Shown here: piece by piece, positions 1 to 14,502 of the stretch
How positions within the stretch are numbered: the first letter of the stretch is position 1
Layout of the letters: every line of letters starts with the position of its first letter
Source: Acidimicrobiia bacterium
Lineage (GTDB): Bacteria; Actinomycetota; Acidimicrobiia; Acidimicrobiales; AC-14
Direction of reading: 5' to 3'
Assembly (NCBI GenBank): GCA_023265025.1
Contig: JAHFUP010000033.1
Span: 1-49,615, forward strand
DNA length: 49,615 nucleotides
The notes under the pieces: model-generated
What the model was told of the DNA's origin: nothing
The model's database searches: none
The model's input: the letters and a program-made list of their open reading frames with translations, nothing else
Translations under genes and position numbers: made by a program

Positions 1-120
1 GCCGCCTCCGCCCTGTCCCTCCCTCGTGTCCGCTGCCGGAGGGGCCGCCTTCGGCGGCGACGGCGGCCACGGACGGGAAACCCCACGAACGCGGCGAACG
101 TTTGTGGTCAGGGCACTAGC
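1..120. repeat. 120-bp direct repeat, copy 1
   Basis: Positions 1-120 match 983-1102 with three mismatches by eye (at 34, 98 and 117). The unit contains a GCCGCC-TTC-GGCGGC hairpin and a second inverted repeat, CCACGAACG at 83-91 with CGTTTGTGG at 99-107 (one G.T pair). Its right end overlaps the stop codon of the CooC-like gene. Both copies lie immediately 3' of reverse-strand genes, so transcript-end structure is a plausible role. The copy may continue left of the window. Confidence 0.9.
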
Positions 121-889
121 CCGCCGGCGCGAACTGTGCTTCGAGGCGATCGGCCAGGCGGCCGATGGCCTGGACGGCGTCACAGTCCGGGGCGGTGTCG
201 AGCACGCACATCGACGCCCGGTCCGCCTCGGGGACCGAGGGGTCCTCGGGGATGGCGACGAGCAGGTCGCATTCGCGTTCGGCGGCGAAGGCCTCCATGC
301 GCTCGACGTCGGCGGGGCCGGTGGCCCGGTTGCCGATGAAGGCGACCCGCTCGATGCCCAGCTCCAGGGCCAGCTTGTGGGTGCGGTCGGCGGTCATCAT
401 GACCTTGGCCGTGGGCTGGACGACGACCAGGAGGAGGTCGACGTAGCGGAGTGTGCCGCCGGCCCAGCTCAGGTGCTCAAGCCCGGCTTCCATGTCGGCG
501 ACGACGAATGTGCCGGGGAGGTCCTTCTCGATCCGTTCGATGAAGTCACGCACGGTGACATGGGCGGTCCCCGTTCAGCCGGAGCCGGCCTTCTCGGCCA
601 TCGCCCCCAGCATGATCGTGATCCCGTCGGGACCCGGCGTGCCGTACTCCTCCAGGAGCTGCACCGGCGAGAGGCCCTCGGGCACCCGCCGGCGGGGACC
701 GGACTGATCGAGGAAGGGCCGCAGCTTGGCCGCCCCCTCCTCGCCCAGGCCGATGTTGGCGCCCAGGTTCGGGTCGGAGTCGCAGTCGATGGCGATAACC
801 CGGTGGCCCCGACGGGCCAGGGTGCGGGACAACACGGCGGAGGTGGTGGTCTTGCCCACCCCGCCCTTGCCGGAGATGCCGAGGCGCAT
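116..889 (-). CDS. CooC-like P-loop ATPase (nickel/CODH-type maturation factor) with in-frame TGA
   Basis: This is a MinD/ParA-fold ATPase resembling CooC, the ATP-dependent factor that helps insert nickel into carbon monoxide dehydrogenase. The N-terminus has the deviant Walker A loop GKGGVGKTT (residues 7-15) and a DCDSDPN switch region. The second half has the family segment ADMEAGLEHL. The reading frame runs 257 codons, the usual family size, but codon 105 (575-577) is TGA. It falls in AGSG-TGA-TGTAH, exactly where the family has the first cysteine of its metal-binding CXC motif; the second cysteine position reads Gly. No other stop or frame change interrupts the frame. It could be a selenocysteine codon, a decayed gene or a sequence error. 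No CODH genes are in the window, so its client is unknown. Confidence 0.75.
545..559 (-). promoter_or_regulatory. SECIS-like hairpin after the in-frame TGA
   Basis: On the mRNA strand, 15 nt after the TGA, GTCAC-CGTGC-GTGAC forms a perfect 5-bp stem with a 5-nt loop that has G as its second base. Bacterial selenocysteine insertion elements are hairpins close downstream of UGA with a G early in a small apical loop, so the geometry fits. Short hairpins are common in GC-rich DNA, so this is suggestive only. Confidence 0.35.
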
Positions 890-3924: not shown

Positions 3925-4644
3925 ATGGACAACAACTTCGTATCCGAGCTCGTGGGAACGGCGATCCTGATCCTGTTGGGCAACGGCGTCGTCGCCGCCG
4001 TGCTGCTGGCCAAGTCGAAGGCCCAGAACTCGGGCTGGATCGTCATCACCTTCGGGTGGGGTATGGCGGTCACCATCGGCGTGTACGCGGCCGGGCCCTT
4101 CAGCGGGGCCCACATCAACCCTGCGGTCACCCTGGGCCTGGCTGCCACCGGTGACTTCCCGTGGGGCGACGTCCCCGTCTACATCGCCGGCCAGTTCGCC
4201 GGTGCCATCCTGGGCGCCTGCCTCGTCTGGCTGGCCTACCTGCCCCACTGGGCGGAGACCGACGACCCGGGCCTGAAGCTGGCCTGCTTCTCGACCGGCC
4301 CCGCCATCCGCAAGCCCCTGCAGAACGCGATCACCGAGATCATCGGCACCGCGATGCTGCTGATCGGCGTCCTGGCCATCGGCATCAACACCGGCGCGGC
4401 GGCGAGTGGTGTCGGCCCGCTGCTCGTCGGCCTCCTCGTCCTGTCGCTGGGCTTGTCCCTCGGTGGGCCCACGGGCTACGCCATCAACCCGGCCCGTGAC
4501 CTCGGGCCTCGCATCGCCCACGCCTTCCTGCCCATCGCCGGCAAGGGTGACTCCGACTGGAGCTACGCGCTGGTCCCGGTGGTGGCGCCCATCATCGGCG
4601 GCATCCTCGGCTCGGTCATCTTCAACGTCGTCTGGCCGAACTAG
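3925..4644 (+). CDS. glpF: Glycerol uptake facilitator (aquaglyceroporin)
   Basis: A 239-residue MIP-family channel that lets glycerol cross the cytoplasmic membrane. Both pore signatures are present: HINPAVTLG near residue 56 and YAINPARDLGPR near 189, and about six hydrophobic segments can be seen. The residue after the second NPA is Arg, then Asp, and the D in INPARD is typical of glycerol-conducting members. ATG 3925 follows AGGGAGG. It is the first gene of a forward operon that runs without a strand change to pgsA; dhaK starts 21 bp after its stop. Confidence 0.95.
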   Translation: MDNNFVSELVGTAILILLGNGVVAAVLLAKSKAQNSGWIVITFGWGMAVTIGVYAAGPFSGAHINPAVTLGLAATGDFPWGDVPVYIAGQFAGAILGACLVWLAYLPHWAETDDPGLKLACFSTGPAIRKPLQNAITEIIGTAMLLIGVLAIGINTGAAASGVGPLLVGLLVLSLGLSLGGPTGYAINPARDLGPRIAHAFLPIAGKGDSDWSYALVPVVAPIIGGILGSVIFNVVWPN

Positions 4645-4665
4645 CACCAGCGAAAGGAGCCTGGC

Positions 4666-5667
<1,002 letters not shown>

Positions 5668-5671
5668 CACT

Positions 5672-6358
5672 TTGACCGACACTGCGGCCGACGTGAGCCG
5701 CTGGATCCACGCCTTCCAGGCCGAGATCGCCGAGCACCGGGTTCGGCTCACCGAGTTGGACGCGGCAATCGGCGACGCCGACCACGGGACGAACATGGAC
5801 CGCGGCATGCGGGCCGTGGTGGCCAAGCTCGACGATGCGGGCGTCGGCGTCGATATCGGGAGCCTGTTCAAGACCGTGGGGATGACGCTCGTCTCCTCGG
5901 TCGGGGGCGCCAGCGGCCCGCTGTACGGGACCCTCTTCCTCCGGATGGCGACGGCCGCCGCCGGCCTCACCGAGTTGAACGGCGACGGGTGGGCGTCAGC
6001 GTGGGACGCCGGCGTCGCCGGCGTGCAGGCGCGGGGTAAGGCGGAGATCGGCGACAAGACGATGGTGGACGCCCTCGTGCCGGCCAGCGCCGCCTTCGCC
6101 GCGGCCGTCGGCCGGGGCGGCTCGTCCGCCGAGGCCTGGCATGCGGCGGCGGTCGCGGCTCGGGCCGGCGTGAAGTCGACCGTCCCCATGGTGGCGCGCA
6201 AGGGCAGGGCGAGTTACCTCGGGGAGCGCAGCGCGGGGCACCAGGACCCGGGGGCGACGTCGACGTACCTGCTCATCGAATGCGGCGCGGAGGTCCTGGG
6301 CGGCGTCGCTCGGGCGGACAGGGAACGCGGGACAGCGACCGAGTCAGTGAGCACCTAA
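5672..6358 (+). CDS. dhaL: Dihydroxyacetone kinase subunit DhaL (nucleotide-binding)
   Basis: A 228-residue DhaL, the subunit that holds ADP and passes phosphate from DhaM to dihydroxyacetone on DhaK. The Mg-nucleotide motif AAIGDADHGTNMDRG lies near residues 31-45, followed by the Gly-rich SSVGGASGPLYGT loop and the C-terminal GRASYLGERS and DPGATST signatures. The start is TTG at 5672, four bases after the dhaK stop, consistent with coupled translation. Confidence 0.95.
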   Translation: MTDTAADVSRWIHAFQAEIAEHRVRLTELDAAIGDADHGTNMDRGMRAVVAKLDDAGVGVDIGSLFKTVGMTLVSSVGGASGPLYGTLFLRMATAAAGLTELNGDGWASAWDAGVAGVQARGKAEIGDKTMVDALVPASAAFAAAVGRGGSSAEAWHAAAVAARAGVKSTVPMVARKGRASYLGERSAGHQDPGATSTYLLIECGAEVLGGVARADRERGTATESVST

Positions 6359-6376
6359 GGAGAAGCGAGGAGAGCG

Positions 6377-7876
6377 ATGGCCAAGTACGTAGCAGCGATC
6401 GACCAGGGCACGACCAGCACCCGATTCATGATCTTCGACCACAGCGGCCAGGTCGTCTCGGTCGCCCAGAAGGAGCACGAGCAGATCTACCCGGCGCCCG
6501 GCTGGGTCGAGCACGACGCTCTCGAGATCATGACCAGGGTCCACGAGGTCATCCCGATGGCGCTGGAGAAGGCCGGCGTGGACTTCCACGACCTGGCCGC
6601 GGTGGGCATCACCAACCAGCGGGAGACCACGGTCCTCTGGGACCGCATCTCGGGCAAGCCCGTCCACAACGCCCTTGTCTGGCAGGACACCCGGACCGAC
6701 GGCATCTGCAACCAGCTGTCCGCCGACGGCGGCCAGGACCGGTTCCGGGTCAAGACCGGCCTCCCGATCGCCACCTACTTCTCCGGCCCGAAGATCAAGT
6801 GGCTGCTCGACAACGAGCCGGAGCTGAAGGCCAAGGCCGAGGCCGGCGACGTGCTGTTCGGCAACATCGACAGCTGGCTGATCTGGAACCTGACCGGGGG
6901 GCCCGACGGTGGCGTGCACGTGACCGACGTCTCCAACGCCAGCCGCACGATGATGATGGACCTGGCCACCCTCGACTGGGACCCCGAGATCCTGGCCATC
7001 CTGGGCGTGCCGCGGGCCATGCTGCCGACCATCCGGGCGTCGAGCGAGGTCTACGGGGAGGCGCACGAGAGCGCCCTCCGGGGGATCGCCATCGCCGGGG
7101 ACCTCGGGGACCAGCAGGCCGCCCTGTTCGGCCAGACGTGCTTCTCGGTCGGCGAGGCCAAGAACACCTACGGGACGGGCAACTTCCTGCTCCTCAACAC
7201 CGGGACCGAAGCGGTCCAGTCCACCTGCGGGCTGCTGACCACCCTCGGCTACAAGATCGGCGACCAGGCCGCGGTGTACTGCCTGGAGGGCTCGATCGCC
7301 ATCACCGGCGCCCTCGTGCAATGGCTGCGGGACAACCTCGGCCTCATTTCCTCGGCACCGGAGATCGAGGCCCTGGCCCGGACCGTGGACGACAATGGCG
7401 GCTGCTACTTCGTGCCCGCCTTCTCGGGCCTGTTCGCCCCGTACTGGAAGAGCGACGCCCGGGGTGTCATCGCCGGCCTCACCCGGTACGTCAACAAGGG
7501 CCACATCGCCCGGGCGTGCCTGGAGGCGACGGCCTGGCAGACCAAGGAGGTCGTCGAGGCCATGAACGCCGACTCGGGCGTGGCCCTGACGTCTCTCAAG
7601 GTCGACGGTGGCATGGTCGGCAACGAGCTGCTGATGCAGCTCCAGTCCGACGTGCTGGGCGTCCCCGTCGTCAGGCCGACCGTGGCCGAGACGACCTCGC
7701 TGGGGGCGGCCTACGCCGCCGGCCTGGCCACCGGCTTCTGGGGCGAGGTGGAGGACCTGCGGGCCAACTGGGGCGAGGACAAGCGCTGGGAGCCGATGAT
7801 GGACGCCGACGTCCGCGACCACGACTACCGGCTCTGGAAGAAGGCCGTCACCCGCACCTTCGACTGGGTCGAGTAG
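6377..7876 (+). CDS. glpK: Glycerol kinase
   Basis: A 499-residue FGGY-family kinase, full length, making glycerol-3-phosphate from glycerol and ATP. It shows [13 protein letters not shown] at the N-terminus, the glycerol-site segment [15 protein letters not shown], and the C-terminal nucleotide-site run KVDGGMVGN with [14 protein letters not shown] 6377 follows GGAGAAGCGAGGAGAGCG. It supplies the substrate for GlpABC encoded directly downstream, so the operon serves both the glycerol-3-phosphate and dihydroxyacetone branches. Confidence 0.97.
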
Positions 7877-7907
7877 CCGAAGGAGCACCGAGTAGCCGAA
7901 AAGCAGC

Positions 7908-7938
7908 GGGCCGGCGACGGGTGACCCGTCGCCGGCCC
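7908..7938. terminator. Strong hairpin between glpK and glpA
   Basis: The 14-base arms 7908-7921 and 7925-7938 are perfectly complementary around a TGA loop and are followed by CTTCTC rather than a long T-run. It may be a partial terminator or a processing/stability element that sets different levels of GlpK and GlpABC. Just upstream, GAGTAGCCGAA occurs twice (7871 and 7890), a small local duplication. Confidence 0.6.
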
Positions 7939-7957
7939 CTTCTCGGAGGGTCAGCGC

Positions 7958-9550
7958 ATGGAGAGCATCGAGACCGAGGTGCTGGTCGTCGGCGGAGGCG
8001 CGACCGGGCTGGGGGTGGCCCGCGACGCGGCGATGCGTGGCTTCGCCACCGTGCTCGTCGAGCGCAAGGACCTGGCCGAGGGGACCACCGGCCGCTACCA
8101 CGGGCTGCTTCACTCCGGTGGCCGGTACGCGGTGAAGGACCCGCGGGCGGCGAGGGAGTGCGCGGCCGAGAACGCCATCCTGCGCCGGGTGGCGGCCGAC
8201 TCCATCGAGGACACGGGCGGCCTGTTCGTGACCACGCCATGGGACGACGTCACCTTCGGCGACCGGTTCCTCGCGGGCTGCGCGGACACGGGTGTCGGCG
8301 TCGAGGAGATCGACGTGGCCGACGCGCTGCGCCGGGAGCCGGCGGTCAACGCCGGCATCCGCCGGGCGTTCCTGGTGGCCGACGCGTCGATGGACGCGTG
8401 GAAGCTGGTCTGGGCCTGCGCCCGATCGGCCGAGCAGCACGGGGCGCGCATCCTCACCTACCGGAGGGTCGTCGAGGTGCTGCGCGCCGCTGACACCGTC
8501 GCCGGTGTGGTCGTGGTCGACTCCCGCAGCGACGAGGAGATGACGATCCACGCCCGGATGACGGTGAACGCCACCGGCGCATGGGCAGGCCAGCTGGCGG
8601 CGCTGGCCGGTTGCCGGCCGGTCGAGGTCGTGCCGGGCAAGGGGATCATGATCGCCATGAACCACCGCATCGTGAACACCGTGGTGAACCGGTGCACCAT
8701 GCCCTCCGACGGCGACATCATCGTGCCGATCCGCACGGTGTCGGTCGTCGGCACGACCGACTCGCCGGTTGCCGACCCCGACCAGCTGGAGGTCACCCAG
8801 GCCGAGGTCGACCACATGCTCGACGAGGGGGAGAAGCTGGTGCCCGGCTTCCGCCACGCCCGGGCCCTGCGGGTGTGGGCCGGCGCCCGCCCGCTCTTCG
8901 GTGCCCGCCCGCCCGGTGATGACGATACGCGCGACATCACCCGGGCCCACGCCCTCATCGACCACGCCGAGCGTGACGGCATCGGAGGGTTCGTGACCAT
9001 CACCGGTGGCAAGGCCACGACGTTCCGGCTCATGGCCGAGGAGACGGTGGACCTGGTCTGCCGCGCCCTCGATGCCGGCGGTCCGCGGCCCTGTCGCACT
9101 GCCGTCGAGGCGTTACCCGATTCTGAGCCGGGGGCGTACTACTCGGTGGGATCGCGGCTGGCCCGCCGGGAGGCGCACCTCCTCGACGACCAACTGGTCT
9201 GTGAGTGCGAACTGGTGTCGCGCCAGACCCTCGAGGAGGCGGTCGAGCGCCGGCCGACGGCCAACCTCGACGACGTCCGCCGTGCGTTGCGGCTGGGGAT
9301 GGGGCCGTGCCAGGGCGGGTTCTGCACGTACCGGGCCACGGGGATCTTCCACCGCCTGGAGCGGCTCGACCAGGTCACGGCCAATACCGCCCTGCTCGAT
9401 TTCCTCCAGGAGCGGTGGAAGGGCGTCCATCCGATCCTGTACGGCGACCAGCTCCGCCAGGCCCGCCTGGACGACTGGATCTACCAGGGCCTGATGGACG
9501 TGGAGCACCTGCCGGCGGTGGCGGCCGCCGCGATCGGGTCCGTCGCATGA
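7958..9550 (+). CDS. glpA: Glycerol-3-phosphate dehydrogenase subunit A (anaerobic-type)
   Basis: A 530-residue FAD-dependent dehydrogenase oxidising glycerol-3-phosphate to dihydroxyacetone phosphate. The N-terminal FAD loop VVGGGATGLGVARDA is near residue 10. The GlpA-specific C-terminal cysteine domain is present, with CECELVSR and GMGPCQGGFCTYR forming a BFD-like [2Fe-2S]-type region that single-subunit GlpD lacks. The stop overlaps the glpB start (ATGA), so A and B are translationally coupled. ATG 7958 follows CGGAGGGT. Confidence 0.95.
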   Translation: MESIETEVLVVGGGATGLGVARDAAMRGFATVLVERKDLAEGTTGRYHGLLHSGGRYAVKDPRAARECAAENAILRRVAADSIEDTGGLFVTTPWDDVTFGDRFLAGCADTGVGVEEIDVADALRREPAVNAGIRRAFLVADASMDAWKLVWACARSAEQHGARILTYRRVVEVLRAADTVAGVVVVDSRSDEEMTIHARMTVNATGAWAGQLAALAGCRPVEVVPGKGIMIAMNHRIVNTVVNRCTMPSDGDIIVPIRTVSVVGTTDSPVADPDQLEVTQAEVDHMLDEGEKLVPGFRHARALRVWAGARPLFGARPPGDDDTRDITRAHALIDHAERDGIGGFVTITGGKATTFRLMAEETVDLVCRALDAGGPRPCRTAVEALPDSEPGAYYSVGSRLARREAHLLDDQLVCECELVSRQTLEEAVERRPTANLDDVRRALRLGMGPCQGGFCTYRATGIFHRLERLDQVTANTALLDFLQERWKGVHPILYGDQLRQARLDDWIYQGLMDVEHLPAVAAAAIGSVA

Positions 9551-10812
9551 GCGGGGAAGGCGAGATCGTCGTCATCGGCGTCGGCCTGGCCGGGCTGGTC
9601 GCCGCCCTCCGGCTGGCCGAGGGCGGCCGGCGGGTGCGGGTCCTGGCCAAGGGCGTCGGGTCGACCCACCTGAGCGGGGCGACGGTCGACGTCCTGGGCT
9701 ACGCGCCCTTCCGCGTCCGGTCCCCTGCCGCCACTCTTCCGGAGTTCGCGGTGGCCAACCCGCACCATCCCTACGCGCTGATGGGGACCGCGGTCGTCGA
9801 CGACGCCGTGACCTGGCTCAAGGGCCGCCTCTCCAACCCCCGCTACGTGGGCGACCTGCGCCGCAACTTCCTACTGCCCACCGCCCTCGGCGTGGCCAAG
9901 CCCACGGCCGTGGCGCCCCAGACCATGGCCGTCGGCGACCTCACCCACGGCGGGTGCTTCGTCATCGTCGGCCTCCCGGGGCTCAAGGACTTCTATCCCG
10001 CGCTGGTGGCTGGGAACCTGGGCTCGACCGTGGGCATCGCCGGCGAGGCGATCGAGGCGCGGGCCGTCGACGTCGACCTCACGTTGGACGGCCGAGTCGA
10101 CGTCGGCCCGTTGGCCTACGCCCGCCGGCTGGACGACCCCGCCTTCCGCGCCCAACTGGCGGCCCGCCTGCACGGCCGCCTCGGTGCCGACGATATGGTC
10201 GGGCTGCCCGCCGTCCTCGGTCTCACCGACGCCGAGCAGGCCTGGGAGGAGCTCGAGGCCCGGCTCGAACGGCCGGTCTTCGAGATCCCGACGTTGCCGC
10301 CGTCGGTACCCGGTGTGCGGCTGTACGGGGCCCTGTCGGGGGCGCTGCACCGCCTGGGCGTCAGCGTGACGATCGGTGGCGAGGTCCTCGGCGCCGAGAC
10401 GCACGGCGGCAGGGTCACCGGCGTCCACACCGAGACCGCCAACGGCGTCCGCTTCCATGCCGCCGCCGGCGTGGTCCTGGCCACCGGGGGGTGGGCGGCC
10501 GGCGGCCTCGAGATGGACAGCCACTGGGTGGTGCGGGAGCCGGTGTTGGGCCTGCCGGTGACCGGGATCCCCGGCGGTGGGAGGCGTTTCCTGCCCGGGT
10601 ACTTCGACCACCATCCCCTGGCCTCGACCGGGGTGGCCGTCGAGGGGTCGCTGCGGCCGGTCGACGGCGACGGGCGGGTCGTGTTCACCAACGTGCGAGT
10701 GGCCGGGGCCACCCTGGCCGGCGCCGAGCCGTGGAAGGAGAAGTCGGGCGACGGGCTGAGCCTGTCGACCGGCTACCACGCCGCCATGTCGATGCTGGCG
10801 GAGGAGGACTAA
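9547..10812 (+). CDS. glpB: Glycerol-3-phosphate dehydrogenase subunit B (anaerobic-type)
   Basis: A 421-residue flavoprotein subunit with an N-terminal dinucleotide loop (VVIGVGLAGLVAALRLAEGG) that departs slightly from GxGxxG at its first residues but keeps the fold, and a C-terminal VLATGGWAAGGL segment. In the GlpABC complex it binds flavin and links GlpA to the iron-sulfur subunit. It overlaps glpA by four bases and glpC by one base (TAATG). The family is recognised from order and pattern. Confidence 0.92.
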   Translation: MSGEGEIVVIGVGLAGLVAALRLAEGGRRVRVLAKGVGSTHLSGATVDVLGYAPFRVRSPAATLPEFAVANPHHPYALMGTAVVDDAVTWLKGRLSNPRYVGDLRRNFLLPTALGVAKPTAVAPQTMAVGDLTHGGCFVIVGLPGLKDFYPALVAGNLGSTVGIAGEAIEARAVDVDLTLDGRVDVGPLAYARRLDDPAFRAQLAARLHGRLGADDMVGLPAVLGLTDAEQAWEELEARLERPVFEIPTLPPSVPGVRLYGALSGALHRLGVSVTIGGEVLGAETHGGRVTGVHTETANGVRFHAAAGVVLATGGWAAGGLEMDSHWVVREPVLGLPVTGIPGGGRRFLPGYFDHHPLASTGVAVEGSLRPVDGDGRVVFTNVRVAGATLAGAEPWKEKSGDGLSLSTGYHAAMSMLAEED

Positions 10813-12032
10813 TGGAGGACCTCATCCGGGCGTCGCTCGACCATTGCATCAAGTGCACGATCTGCGAGACGGTGTGCCCGGTCGCCCAGGTCACGCCGTT
10901 GTTCCCGGGGCCGAAGTACGAGGGCCCGCAGGCCGAGCGCTTCCGCCTGCCCAGCGGCTCCGCCGACGCGTCGGTGGACTACTGCTCGGGCTGCGGCCTC
11001 TGCACGCAGGTGTGCCCGCAGGGCGTGAAGATCGCCGAGATCAACTCCCGCGCCCGCGCCCACTTCAAGGCGCAGAAGGGCGTTTCCGTCCGTGACCGGA
11101 TCCTGGCCCGACCGGGTCTCACCGGGCGCCTCGGCACGCCGGTCGCACCGCTGGCCAACCGGGTGATGGCCAACGGGACCGCCCGCCGGCTGATGGAGAA
11201 GGCGGTCGGGGTCCACCACGCCGCCCCGGTGCCCGTCTATGCCGGGCACAGCTTCCAGCGGTGGGCGCGCCACCACGAGCGGCACGCGTCGCCCCGGCTC
11301 GACGGCCGGTCGGTCGTGTACTTCCACGGCTGCAGCGTGAACTGGTTCGAGCCCGACCTCGGGCGCATGGTCGTCGCCGTCCTGGAGCACAACGGTGTCG
11401 AGGTGAAGATGCCGCGGCAGGACTGTTGTGGGCTGCCGCTGCAGTCGAACGGGCTGTTCGACGCCGCCCGCCGGGCCCTGGGGCGCCTGGCCCGGGATCT
11501 CTCTGCCGGTAGCGCAGGCCATGCTGTGGTCGCCAGCTCGACGAGTTGCGGCGTCATGCTGAAGCGCGAGGGCCGGGAGATCCTGGGGCTCGACGACGAC
11601 GAGACCCTGCGCGCCGTAGGGGCGCGGACGTTCGACGTCTGCGAGTACCTGCTCGACCTGCACGGCCAGGGCCTGCTGGACACCGGCTTCCGCCCGCTGC
11701 CGCTCACGGTCATCTATCACGCCGCCTGCCAGCAGCGGGGCCACTCCATGGGGACGCCGGCGCTGGAACTTCTCCGCCTCGTGCCGGAGCTGGAGGTCAT
11801 CCGGAGCGAGGCCGACTGCTGCGGCATGGCCGGCACCTACGGTCTCAAGAAGGAGAAGTACGACATCGGCATGGCCGTCGGCGAGCGGCTGTTCGAGCAG
11901 GTCCGCCGGGTCGGGCCGGACGCGGTGGCCTGCGACGGTGAGACCTGCCGGTGGCAGATCACCAAAGCCACCGGCCGGGCGTCGGTCCATCCCGTGGAGC
12001 TGCTCTTCCGGGCGTACGGCCTGGAGCTCTGA
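10812..12032 (+). CDS. glpC: Glycerol-3-phosphate dehydrogenase subunit C (iron-sulfur, membrane anchor)
   Basis: A 406-residue electron-transfer subunit. Two four-cysteine ferredoxin-type clusters are visible: CIKCTICETVCP (C12, C15, C18, C22) and CSGCGLCTQVCPQG. Two CCG domains follow, marked by DCCGLPLQSNG and DCCGMAGTYG, as in heterodisulfide-reductase-like subunits. It passes electrons from GlpAB to the quinone pool. dhaM begins eight bases after its stop. Confidence 0.95.
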   Translation: MEDLIRASLDHCIKCTICETVCPVAQVTPLFPGPKYEGPQAERFRLPSGSADASVDYCSGCGLCTQVCPQGVKIAEINSRARAHFKAQKGVSVRDRILARPGLTGRLGTPVAPLANRVMANGTARRLMEKAVGVHHAAPVPVYAGHSFQRWARHHERHASPRLDGRSVVYFHGCSVNWFEPDLGRMVVAVLEHNGVEVKMPRQDCCGLPLQSNGLFDAARRALGRLARDLSAGSAGHAVVASSTSCGVMLKREGREILGLDDDETLRAVGARTFDVCEYLLDLHGQGLLDTGFRPLPLTVIYHAACQQRGHSMGTPALELLRLVPELEVIRSEADCCGMAGTYGLKKEKYDIGMAVGERLFEQVRRVGPDAVACDGETCRWQITKATGRASVHPVELLFRAYGLEL

Positions 12033-12039
12033 GCCGGAG

Positions 12040-14502
12040 TTGGTAGGAATCGTCATCGTCTCCCACAGCGCCGGCCTGGCCAGGGGCGTGGCCGAGCTGG
12101 CCCGGGAGATGGGGGGCCCGGACGTCTGCATCGAGGTGGCGGCCGGGATGGCCGATGGCGGCGGCCTGGGGACGGACGCGCTGGCGGTCATGGGGGCGAT
12201 CGAAGCCGCATTCTCGCCCGACGGGGTGCTCGTGCTCATGGACCTGGGCAGCGCGGTGCTGAGCGCCGAGACCGCGGTGGAGATGCTCGACCCCGCGGTG
12301 GCAGCCGTCGTGCGCCTCTCGGAGGCGCCGCTGGTCGAGGGGGCGGTCGGTGCGGCCACCGCGGCCCGCCTCGGGCTCAGCCTGGACGAGGTCGCCGCCG
12401 AGGCCGCCGGCGGGCTGGCGGGCAAGCGCGAGCACCTGGGTGCGCCGCCGGCGGCGCCGGTGGTGCCGGTCGCGCCGCCGATCGGGGAGGAGGTGCGGAT
12501 CGTCGTGGGGAACCGGCTGGGGCTGCACGCCCGCCCCGCGGCGCGGTTTGTCGCCACTGCGGGCCGGTTCGACGCGGTGGTCACCGTCGACAACGCCACG
12601 ACCGGCCGGGGGCCGGCGTCGGGCCGGAGCCTCAGCGGGCTGGCCACCCTGGGGGTGGGTCGGGGCGACGAGATCGTCGTGCGGGCGTCGGGACCGGAGG
12701 CGGCCGCCGCGCTGGACGCGCTTGTCGCGCTCGCCGCCGACGACTTCGGCGATCGGCCGGCGGCGACGGACGCCCCGGTCCCGGAGTCCCGGGTGGCCGG
12801 CGCCGGCTTCGTCGGCCTGCCGGCGTCTCCCGGCATCGCGCTGGGGCCGGCTCGCCACGTGCGGCCCATCGTCCCCGAGGTGCCCCTCGGGCCGGTGACC
12901 GATCCGTCCACGGCCTGGGAGGACCTGGAGGCAGCGCTGGTCGCGGCCCGGGCGGACATCGGCGCGGCCCGGGCCGCGGCGGCAGCCGCCGCCGGCGAGC
13001 AGGAGGCGGCCATCTTCGACGCCCACCTGCTGCTCCTCGAGGACGAGGCCCTGCTGGGGCCGGCCCGCGTGGCCGTGTTTGATCGGGGCGTCAACGCGGC
13101 GCGGGCCTGGCGCGCCTCGGTCGACGAGGTCGCCGGGTCGTACCGTCAGCTCGCGGACCCGTACCTGCAGGCCCGGGCGGGCGACGTCGAGGAGGTGGGC
13201 AACCGGGTGCTGGTGCGCCTGCTGCGCCGCGCTGGCGGTTCCGTGTCGCTCGACGCCGCCGGCGTGGTGGTGATGGACGAGGCGATGGCCGGCGACCTCA
13301 TCGAGCTCGACCCGGCGCTCGTGACCGGACTGGCCACCGCCGGCGGCGGGCCCCTCGGCCACGGGGCCATCCTCGCCCGCGCCATCGGCATCCCCGCCGT
13401 CGTCGGGTTGGGTCCCGGGGTGCTGGCTGTCGCCGAGGGCACGCCCCTGGCGGTCGACGGCGACACGGGGGCGGTCTACGTCGACCCGCCGGCCGACCTC
13501 GTCGCGCAACTGGAGGCCCGGAAGGCCGACGACAGCCGCCGCCGGTCGAGCGCCCTCGCCGTCGCCGCCTCGCCGGCGGTGACCCGCGACGGTCGCCGCA
13601 TCCTCGTCGAGGCCAACGCCGGCTCGGCCCACGAGGCGGCGGCCATCGTGGCCGGCGGGGCCGACGGGGTCGGCCTCCTGCGCACCGAGTTCCTGTTCCT
13701 CGACCGGGACACCCCACCGGACGAAGACGAGCAGTACCGGGCCTACCTGGAGCTGGCCGCCGGCCTCGGCGGCCGGCCGGTGGTCGTCCGGACGCTCGAC
13801 GCCGGCGCCGACAAGCCGGCGGCCTGGCTGCCGGGCGGCCAGGGAGCCGAGGCCAACCCGGCCCTCGGACTACGGGGGTTGCGGCTGGGGCTGTCGCGTC
13901 CCGACGTGCTGCTCGTGCAGCTCCGAGCCGTCCTCCGGGTGGCGGCCGCCCACCCGGTACGGGTGATGTTCCCCATGGTCACCACCGTCGAGGAGGTCCA
14001 CCAGGCCAAGGCCCTGCTCGCCGTGGCCCGCGTCGATCTTGTCGTCCGGGGCGTCGACGTGCCGGCGCACCTCCCGCTCGGGATCATGGTGGAGGTGCCG
14101 GCCGCCGCCCTCCGCATCCGGCACCTGGCCCCGGAGGTGGACTTCTTCTCGATCGGCACGAACGACCTGACCCAGTACGCCCTGGCCGTGGACCGGGGCA
14201 ACAGCGCGGTCGCCGGCCTGGGCGACGGGCTGGACCCGGCTGTCCTCGCACTGGTCGACGCCGTGGTGCGTGGCGCCGGCGACCGGCCGGTGGCCGTGTG
14301 CGGGGCCCTCGCCGCCGACCTCCGCGCCGTCCCGATCCTCGTCGGCCTCGGGGTGACCGAGCTGTCGGTGCCGCCGTCCGCCGTCGCCGGCGTCAAGCAG
14401 ACGGTCCGGGAGGTCGACGTCGCGTCCGCCTGGAGTCTGGCCCAGCGCCTCCTGGCCCTTGACTCGGCCGCCGCCGTGCGCCGGGCCCTGGAGGACCGGT
14501 GA
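12040..14502 (+). CDS. dhaM: DhaM-HPr-Enzyme I fusion, phosphoryl donor of dihydroxyacetone kinase
   Basis: An 820-residue fusion. Residues 1-130 are the EIIA-Man-like DhaM domain with its phospho-His in IVSHSAG (H9). Residues about 148-235 are an HPr domain with LGLHARPAARF (H163). From about 255 onward is Enzyme I, including the phospho-His region GGGPLGHGAILAR (H441) and the PEP-binding part with FFSIGTNDLTQYALA and VCGALAAD (C754). Enzyme I appears complete, whereas E. coli DhaM carries only its N-terminal part, so this protein could take phosphate directly from PEP. The start TTG 12040 is inferred from domain length; upstream in-frame sequence lies inside glpC. Confidence 0.93.
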   Translation: MVGIVIVSHSAGLARGVAELAREMGGPDVCIEVAAGMADGGGLGTDALAVMGAIEAAFSPDGVLVLMDLGSAVLSAETAVEMLDPAVAAVVRLSEAPLVEGAVGAATAARLGLSLDEVAAEAAGGLAGKREHLGAPPAAPVVPVAPPIGEEVRIVVGNRLGLHARPAARFVATAGRFDAVVTVDNATTGRGPASGRSLSGLATLGVGRGDEIVVRASGPEAAAALDALVALAADDFGDRPAATDAPVPESRVAGAGFVGLPASPGIALGPARHVRPIVPEVPLGPVTDPSTAWEDLEAALVAARADIGAARAAAAAAAGEQEAAIFDAHLLLLEDEALLGPARVAVFDRGVNAARAWRASVDEVAGSYRQLADPYLQARAGDVEEVGNRVLVRLLRRAGGSVSLDAAGVVVMDEAMAGDLIELDPALVTGLATAGGGPLGHGAILARAIGIPAVVGLGPGVLAVAEGTPLAVDGDTGAVYVDPPADLVAQLEARKADDSRRRSSALAVAASPAVTRDGRRILVEANAGSAHEAAAIVAGGADGVGLLRTEFLFLDRDTPPDEDEQYRAYLELAAGLGGRPVVVRTLDAGADKPAAWLPGGQGAEANPALGLRGLRLGLSRPDVLLVQLRAVLRVAAAHPVRVMFPMVTTVEEVHQAKALLAVARVDLVVRGVDVPAHLPLGIMVEVPAAALRIRHLAPEVDFFSIGTNDLTQYALAVDRGNSAVAGLGDGLDPAVLALVDAVVRGAGDRPVAVCGALAADLRAVPILVGLGVTELSVPPSAVAGVKQTVREVDVASAWSLAQRLLALDSAAAVRRALEDR

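Follow-up and report, generated by a model that had tools for sequence, protein, structure and literature searches.

The window analysed here, a stretch of 49,615 nucleotides from the draft genome of an Acidimicrobiia bacterium (source genome G000, 185 contigs), carries at its contig end a gene of a CooC-like ATPase in which a single in-frame TGA, at codon 105, is almost certainly decoded as selenocysteine (Sec); the insertion itself is inferred, and no selenium was measured. The best overall explanation, which is considered likely, is that this Sec-decoded ATPase acts as a metal-insertion protein, probably for nickel. The gene belongs to one branch (branch A) of a wider family in which forms with one Sec and with two both occur. 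The preliminary description of this DNA, in which a new selenoprotein family member was suspected, was thus supported but understated the case.

The frame was confirmed on the minus strand from an ATG at 889 to a TAG stop at 118..116; as described before, it has 257 codons and no in-frame stop other than the TGA, which stands in the context ...MAEKAGSG-TGA-TGTAHVTV.... The coordinates of the gene and of its main features are shown in Table 1. Elsewhere TGA is an ordinary stop: it ends 16 of the 25 window genes confidently called by our own gene caller, and it is the commonest stop in the source genome (45 of 70 genes called over all G000 stretches). The earlier remark that other genes of the window stop at TGA was therefore correct, and a general reassignment of TGA, already held to be improbable, was rejected, since TGA ends most called genes. 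A GTG-started downstream open reading frame (116..553) lies inside the gene. Within the genus, pN/pS was 0.09–0.10 before the TGA and 0.15–0.22 after it, so that the codons 3' of the TGA are under purifying selection; the values of more distant pairs were saturated and uninformative. Gene callers that take TGA as a stop split such genes, as happened at this locus, and Sec ATPase genes of this kind are thus easily missed.

Table 1. Coordinates in the window of the Sec ATPase gene, its features and the upstream gene.
Feature	Position	Strand	Remarks
Gene of Sec-containing CooC-like MinD/SIMIBI ATPase	116..889	-	257 codons, including the read-through TGA
Deviant Walker A motif GKGGVGKTT	845..871	-	residues 7–15
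TGA read as Sec105	575..577	-	codon 105; equivalent of CooC1 Cys112 (phmmer alignment)
Gly107	569..571	-	Cys114 in CooC1; Gly or Trp in 8/8 branch A genes
His110	560..562	-	at +5 from Sec/Cys; conserved in branches A, B and D
SECIS-like hairpin GTCAC-CGTGC-GTGAC	545..559	-	5 bp stem, 5-nt loop; RNAalifold
Upstream gene, 258 aa	1106..1882	-	adjoins the ATPase gene in 5/7 clustered branch A loci

The search for the selenocysteine machinery found selA, selB, selC and selD in the source genome. The tRNA-Sec scored 66.4 bits against a cut-off of 47 and was also called as tRNA-SeC by ARAGORN, the genes of SelA (405.9 bits) and SelB (297.9 bits) are adjacent, and SelD (361.5 bits) itself has one in-frame TGA, in HGAGUACK (L232, contig 19 of G000). 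This Sec-containing selD is an internal positive control; of the TGA codons listed for SelD, only those at HGAGU sites were used. Among 14 well-known control genomes, values over the cut-off were obtained for tRNA-Sec in 5, SelB in 2, SelA in 1 and SelD in 2. In a sample of 60 genomes, consisting of the source genome and relatives, selA and selB were over the cut-off in all ten genomes with a TGA member of the family and tRNA-Sec in nine of them (not in G038). With nine further genomes added to these ten, selA was over the cut-off in 19 out of 19; this co-occurrence gives only modest support (p 0.001), because selA is common anyway (37 of the 60 sample genomes). Two genomes with CxC members, G054 and G285, also carry selA, and in G054 selA and tRNA-Sec were present with no SelB over the cut-off.

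The TGA is found at the same codon in this gene and in all seven orthologues detected, which are 55–94% identical. The search of the 60 genomes gave single-TGA genes of branch A in seven (G000, G001, G002, G005, G006, G018 and G049), and a class survey of 395 genomes, 24 of them with a family match at E <= 1e-20 and with at most six candidates scored per genome, added an eighth (G367). A random stop at this codon had been thought improbable, which the eight branch A genes out of eight with TGA there bear out. The family tree was built from 82 domain rows, reduced to 73 members by requiring a P-loop and 200 residues; loci were added later, with only matches of at least 40 bits kept. A profile scan of genome contigs with the branch A alignment gave distant relatives only among the best 80 of 322 confirmed loci, and Pseudonocardia kunmingensis was found among these best 80.

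Branch A (motif GxGUT[G/W]) comprises eight genes, all with TGA. Branch B contains 5 TGA genes and 14 Cys genes; branch C (PGUxUC) 16 UxU, 2 CxU and 2 CxC genes; branch D 2 ULC genes, with Sec, and 15 Cys genes; branch E (CLCCGS) 8 Cys genes; and branch F (RPGUGG) 2 TGA genes. In addition, there are 35 Cys-less members, many of which directly adjoin branch C or E genes. The exchange of Cys and TGA at codon 105 that had been proposed as a check was thus found in homologues of branches B, C and D. Among paralogues, Sec and Cys are exchanged at both CxC positions, as the counts of branch C indicate, and sister branches keep CxC, UxC or UxU where branch A has UxG or UxW. A CxU member is present in an isolate, P. 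kunmingensis DSM 45301 (L130), and a UxU member in the metagenome-assembled genome Actinomycetota bacterium MGR_bin368 (L106). In P. kunmingensis both selA and selD exceed the cut-off, while ARAGORN called no tRNA within the 15 kb surrounding its selA.

Several paralogues deserve mention on their own. In the source genome, the gene at L043:7038-7778 (-), on contig 158 of G000, has a pair of in-frame TGA codons at a distance of six bases (UxUC), and 15 further such genes were found; these double-TGA paralogues, of which the source genome has one, stand in tandem with a Cys-less paralogue and are arguably more striking than the gene of the window. At L218:6959 (-) and L219:7727 (-), a D-type ATPase adjoining hypC has Sec for the first Cys (GGGULC). 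Branch F, with L050:7696-8424 (-) and L057:456-1229 (+) from G001 and G002, is a second single-Sec form without CxC. The family matches G002:C179, G006:C1 and G002:C221 contain a TAG or TAA within the region matched and may be end effects or broken genes.

A SECIS-like hairpin follows the TGA, and 20 nt separate its apical loop from this codon. According to the available part of PMC13188914, the bSECIS model asks for a stem of 4–16 bp, a loop of 3–9 nt with G in the first two loop positions, and a distance of 16–37 nt after the UGA; the hairpin (5 bp, loop CGTGC, 20 nt) fits these limits, the free-energy constraint not being covered. Given 15 TGA genes from branches A, B and D, RNAalifold predicted exactly this 5-bp stem unaided. 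In these genes, 75 of 75 stem cells pair and three of the five pairs are changed on both sides, the changes falling largely between subfamilies, while controls with a slid partner were at most 44% paired. The stem beat 500 of 500 shuffles in percentage paired, in cells changed on both sides and in covariation score; it was not exceptional in the number of pairs changed on both sides, which 170 of 500 shuffles equalled or exceeded, or in further pair types (500 of 500).

All 15 TGA genes from branches A, B and D have the stem in full, and none of the 30 aligned Cys genes of the B/D type does; over branches A–D, a complete stem was found in 33 of 33 TGA genes. Branch C has a different stem (CCGAG-CAGTTG-CTCGG), complete in all 18 genes that contain one or two TGA codons and in one of the two CxC genes; in branch F, four of five pairs are formed in both genes. 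Only genes whose motif fitted set patterns were counted, so that branch E, the Cys-less members and most distant CxC genes are outside these counts. Under synonymous shuffling, the chance of the hairpin per sequence was 0.02–0.03 in branch A, 0.005 in B, 0.03 in D and mostly 0.19–0.28 in C, and the test against this null is only moderately strong. The CxCC member at L220:5423 (+) of G285 has Cys codons and keeps the complete branch C hairpin, which may, by inference, reflect a recent change from Sec to Cys.

By sequence homology, the read-through protein can be placed among the P-loop ATPases of the CbiA/MinD/NifH superfamily (Pfam matches CbiA, 59.9 bits, and Fer4_NifH, 50 bits). Among solved structures, the closest to it in sequence is CooC1 of Carboxydothermus hydrogenoformans (phmmer against PDB, E 4.6e-20), and the alignment with 3kje sets residue 105 on Cys112 and Gly107 on Cys114; the TGA had been described as lying at the metal-site cysteine of CooC, and this position holds. 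In 28 aligned CooC-like proteins, including two TGA rows read as Cys, the Cys column at position 105 is at least 90% conserved. The replacement of the second CooC cysteine by Gly, also pointed out before, proved to be a stable trait of branch A, in which only Gly or Trp occurs. An AlphaFold2 model in which Cys replaces Sec (pLDDT 90.9, pTM 0.90) had CooC1 3kje as its top Foldseek match in PDB (E 1.1e-16, TM 0.77). VIA-align placed NifH (nitrogenase Fe proteins) and MinD structures on top (Z 24–27), without CooC1 among its 50 rows, so that the fold alone does not single out CooC; the absence of CooC1 there is no evidence against kinship. All 44 genes from branches A, B and D, and none from branches C, E and F, have a His at +5 from the Sec or Cys; His110 may be an extra metal ligand, a candidate role that is inferred.

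Of the traits of a CooC protein, the deviant Walker A motif and the MinD/SIMIBI fold are present. The CxC pair at the dimer interface is not, and no [NiFe]-CODH client (PF03063) was found in the source genome. As Sec105 and Gly107 replace the strictly conserved CxC, the protein is named CooC-like and not CooC. A metal-handling function of this ATPase is considered likely, with metal binding inferred and not measured.

A relation with [NiFe] hydrogenases was observed in the sister branches, whose recurring neighbours were identified with Pfam as hydrogenase large and small subunits, HycI protease, HypC and HypD. A hydrogenase or hyp gene was present within 10 kb in 17 of 17 loci of branch D, 9 of 19 of branch B, 9 of 20 of branch C, 10 of 35 of the Cys-less members and 2 of 17 other CxC relatives, and in none of the branch A (0/8), E (0/8) and F (0/2) loci; these counts are limited to fetched stretches of unequal length. 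The gene order of L106 is hypC, hypD, hypE, Cys-less ATPase and UxU ATPase, and in a Saprospiraceae metagenome-assembled genome (L101) a CxC relative lies between HycI- and HypC-like genes. Near the UxU gene of G372 and G422 there is an ABC substrate-binding protein like those of the NikA/Opp families, below their cut-offs.

At the genome level, hydrogenase matches were found in 12 of the 12 family genomes of the 60-genome sample (defined by a match at E <= 1e-20), against 11 of the 48 others (Fisher p 1e-6, without correction for kinship). A prismane/CODH match (PF03063) was found in none of the 12 and in only one of the 60 genomes (G051), so that the link of the family is with hydrogenases rather than with CODH. 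All seven branch A genomes of the sample have hydrogenase matches; branch A therefore shares hydrogenase-bearing genomes but not hydrogenase loci. The hydrogenases may belong to group 1l, which is a suspicion only and is not claimed. HypA and HypB were both below the cut-off in six of the 12 family genomes (G002, G018, G026, G038, G045 and G049), one of which, G045, is only 63% complete. Among 18 genomes with strong hydrogenase matches, six had neither HypA nor HypB over the cut-off and all six carry the family, against six of the other 12; as a contrast this is weak (Fisher p 0.05, again without correction for kinship, the cut for "strong" chosen after the list was seen). Since six of the 12 family genomes also have both proteins, a replacement of HypA/HypB is not general. 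Nickel delivery to hydrogenase is inferred and only slightly favoured as the main role of the family; for branch A, whose client is likewise inferred, the same role is doubtful.

The genes around branch A gave no functional lead. The upstream gene of Table 1 had no match in Pfam (searched with its homologue in L044) or in NCBIfam; the eighth branch A locus, L206, was outside the clustering of neighbours. Genes judged by eye as leuC/leuD-like occur in the same fetched stretch at four of seven branch A loci (L044, L059, L066 and L076) and are absent near the locus of G049. Window positions 3925–14502 hold an apparent cluster for glycerol use, with genes that by eye are aquaporin-, DhaK/DhaL-, GlpK- and GlpD-like; neither these nor the leuCD-like neighbours point to a function. 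A direct repeat of 120 bp, 98% identical, lies on both sides of the Sec ATPase gene (window 1–120 and 983–1102), and its exact 23-base core was found in no other fetched locus, apart from copies of the same place. In branch E, genes with a Cys-less partner stand near genes that by eye are of cobalamin synthesis (CobO/CobB-type), CcdA- and thioredoxin-like (L042, L048, L055, L063 and L069), and a cobalt role is perhaps to be considered for this branch.

In the mechanism proposed, the UGA at codon 105 would be decoded by SelB and tRNA-Sec under the guidance of the hairpin. By homology with CooC1, residue 105 would lie where the two subunits of a nucleotide-controlled dimer meet, in a metal site to which each subunit would offer a selenolate, and perhaps His110, instead of two thiolates. 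Binding and hydrolysis of ATP would open and close this site, so that a soft metal ion could be taken up and then handed to an apo-enzyme; the likeliest cargo in the family would be nickel for [NiFe] hydrogenases. A gain in affinity, or in recovery of the site from oxidation, may be inferred for the selenolate. A broader proposal, that ATPases with selenolate ligands (Sec-x-Sec, or Sec with His) serve the [NiFe] hydrogenases of actinomycetes and replace HypA/HypB in some lineages, is put forward tentatively and is held to be short of probable.

Concerning the TGA itself, an error of sequencing or a decaying pseudogene could be suspected in a draft assembly with the gene at the end of a contig. 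The likelihood of this is negligible: this gene and all seven orthologues share the TGA, in eight separate assemblies, purifying selection continues after it within the genus, and no other stop interrupts the frame. It could also be a real stop, leaving an N-terminal half of 104 residues and a separate C-terminal half, or be read through without regulation with another amino acid. TGA as the commonest stop of the genome and the GTG-started frame downstream would agree with this; yet the Cys homologues are single proteins, the TGA falls on the codon of a metal ligand, for which sister genes have Cys, the complete hairpin in branches A, B and D accompanies only TGA, and selA is present in every TGA genome. 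A real stop is hence very improbable, and decoding as selenocysteine is retained.

The function is less firmly settled. A Sec serving redox chemistry or sensing, without metal transfer, is regarded as improbable. Redox is thought to be the function of most uncharacterised selenoproteins, as stated in the accessible part of PMC13188914, and the single Sec of branch A, without CxC and with no hydrogenase or hyp neighbour in eight loci, could be understood in this way; however, codon 105 corresponds to a metal-ligand cysteine of CooC1 (PMC6006190, seen in part), the site varies between UxU, CxU, UxC and CxC, as ligands would, and three sister branches are found in hydrogenase/hyp clusters. Transfer of a different metal or of a cofactor (zinc or cobalt, an iron-sulfur cluster, or selenium as such) to an enzyme other than hydrogenase is possible, although not likely. 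LeuC-type proteins carry a [4Fe-4S] cluster, and leuC/leuD-like genes accompany branch A at the four loci mentioned. The fold also resembles NifH, and the site of CooC1 binds zinc, according to the part of PMC6006190 that was available. Against this stand the locus of G049, without leuC/leuD-like genes, and the hydrogenase matches in seven of seven branch A genomes of the sample. Genes of the leuCD type are also widespread without the Sec ATPase gene. Metal insertion, probably of nickel, is maintained as the preferred reading of the Sec-decoded ATPase. If the broader proposal on the hydrogenases of actinomycetes is true, selenium is used in the tool that builds a metal centre and not in the enzyme itself. 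The family offers a natural series of one metal site (CxC, CxU, UxC, UxU and UxG), suited to the study of selenium as ligand of a releasable metal, and possibly a second route of nickel insertion for [NiFe] hydrogenases in genomes without HypA/HypB.

With respect to novelty, NCBIfam 20.0 contains no selenoprotein family for the Sec ATPase. A table from 2026 that covers 119 families of prokaryotic selenoproteins (PMC13188914, in the part available) includes no CooC, MinD or NifH-type ATPase, and these three names have 0 mentions in its main text. No Sec-containing CooC was found in the accessible portions of PMC12013277, PMC1794560, PMC9164220 and PMC13056359. Among the papers listed, all from the openly licensed PMC literature, no title or beginning of an abstract reports one, which for that reason is not proof, and none joins selenocysteine or selenoprotein with Acidimicrobi-. 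Within this limited scope of literature, the verdict is that the fold is known but the selenoprotein family new, one variant of it having two Sec residues; as far as could be checked, the MinD-type P-loop ATPase is a fold added to the list of selenoproteins.

Among known systems, CooC1 of C. hydrogenoformans (PDB 3kje, 3kjg, 3kjh and 3kji) is alike in length, deviant Walker A motif and fold. The branch A protein differs from it at the positions of Cys112 (Sec) and Cys114 (Gly), in a source genome without a prismane/CODH match and in the several ATPase paralogues per genome. The CobW-related selenoprotein NF041053 is a G3E GTPase. Together with NiFeSe hydrogenases, FdhA and MbdU, it is an example of Sec known or proposed at a metal site; all of these have other folds and motifs, and none is listed as a MinD-type ATPase in the part of PMC13188914 at hand. 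HypB and HypA share with the family the proposed role of nickel delivery driven by a nucleoside triphosphate, and in some branches the ATPase gene stands next to hypC, hypD, hypE and hydrogenase genes. As a G3E GTPase (PMC9164220, available in part), HypB differs from the Sec ATPase family, which consists of MinD-type ATPases. As a further difference, HypA and HypB were not over the cut-off in half of the 12 genomes that carry the CooC-like family. NifH and BchL, in which a cluster is located between subunits, belong to the same superfamily as the Sec ATPase (VIA-align Z up to 26.8). The cut-offs of their families were missed by far (TIGR01287, 45 bits against 394.35; TIGR01281, 39.5 against 345.15), and it is CooC1, not NifH or BchL, that the Sec ATPase matches best in Foldseek.
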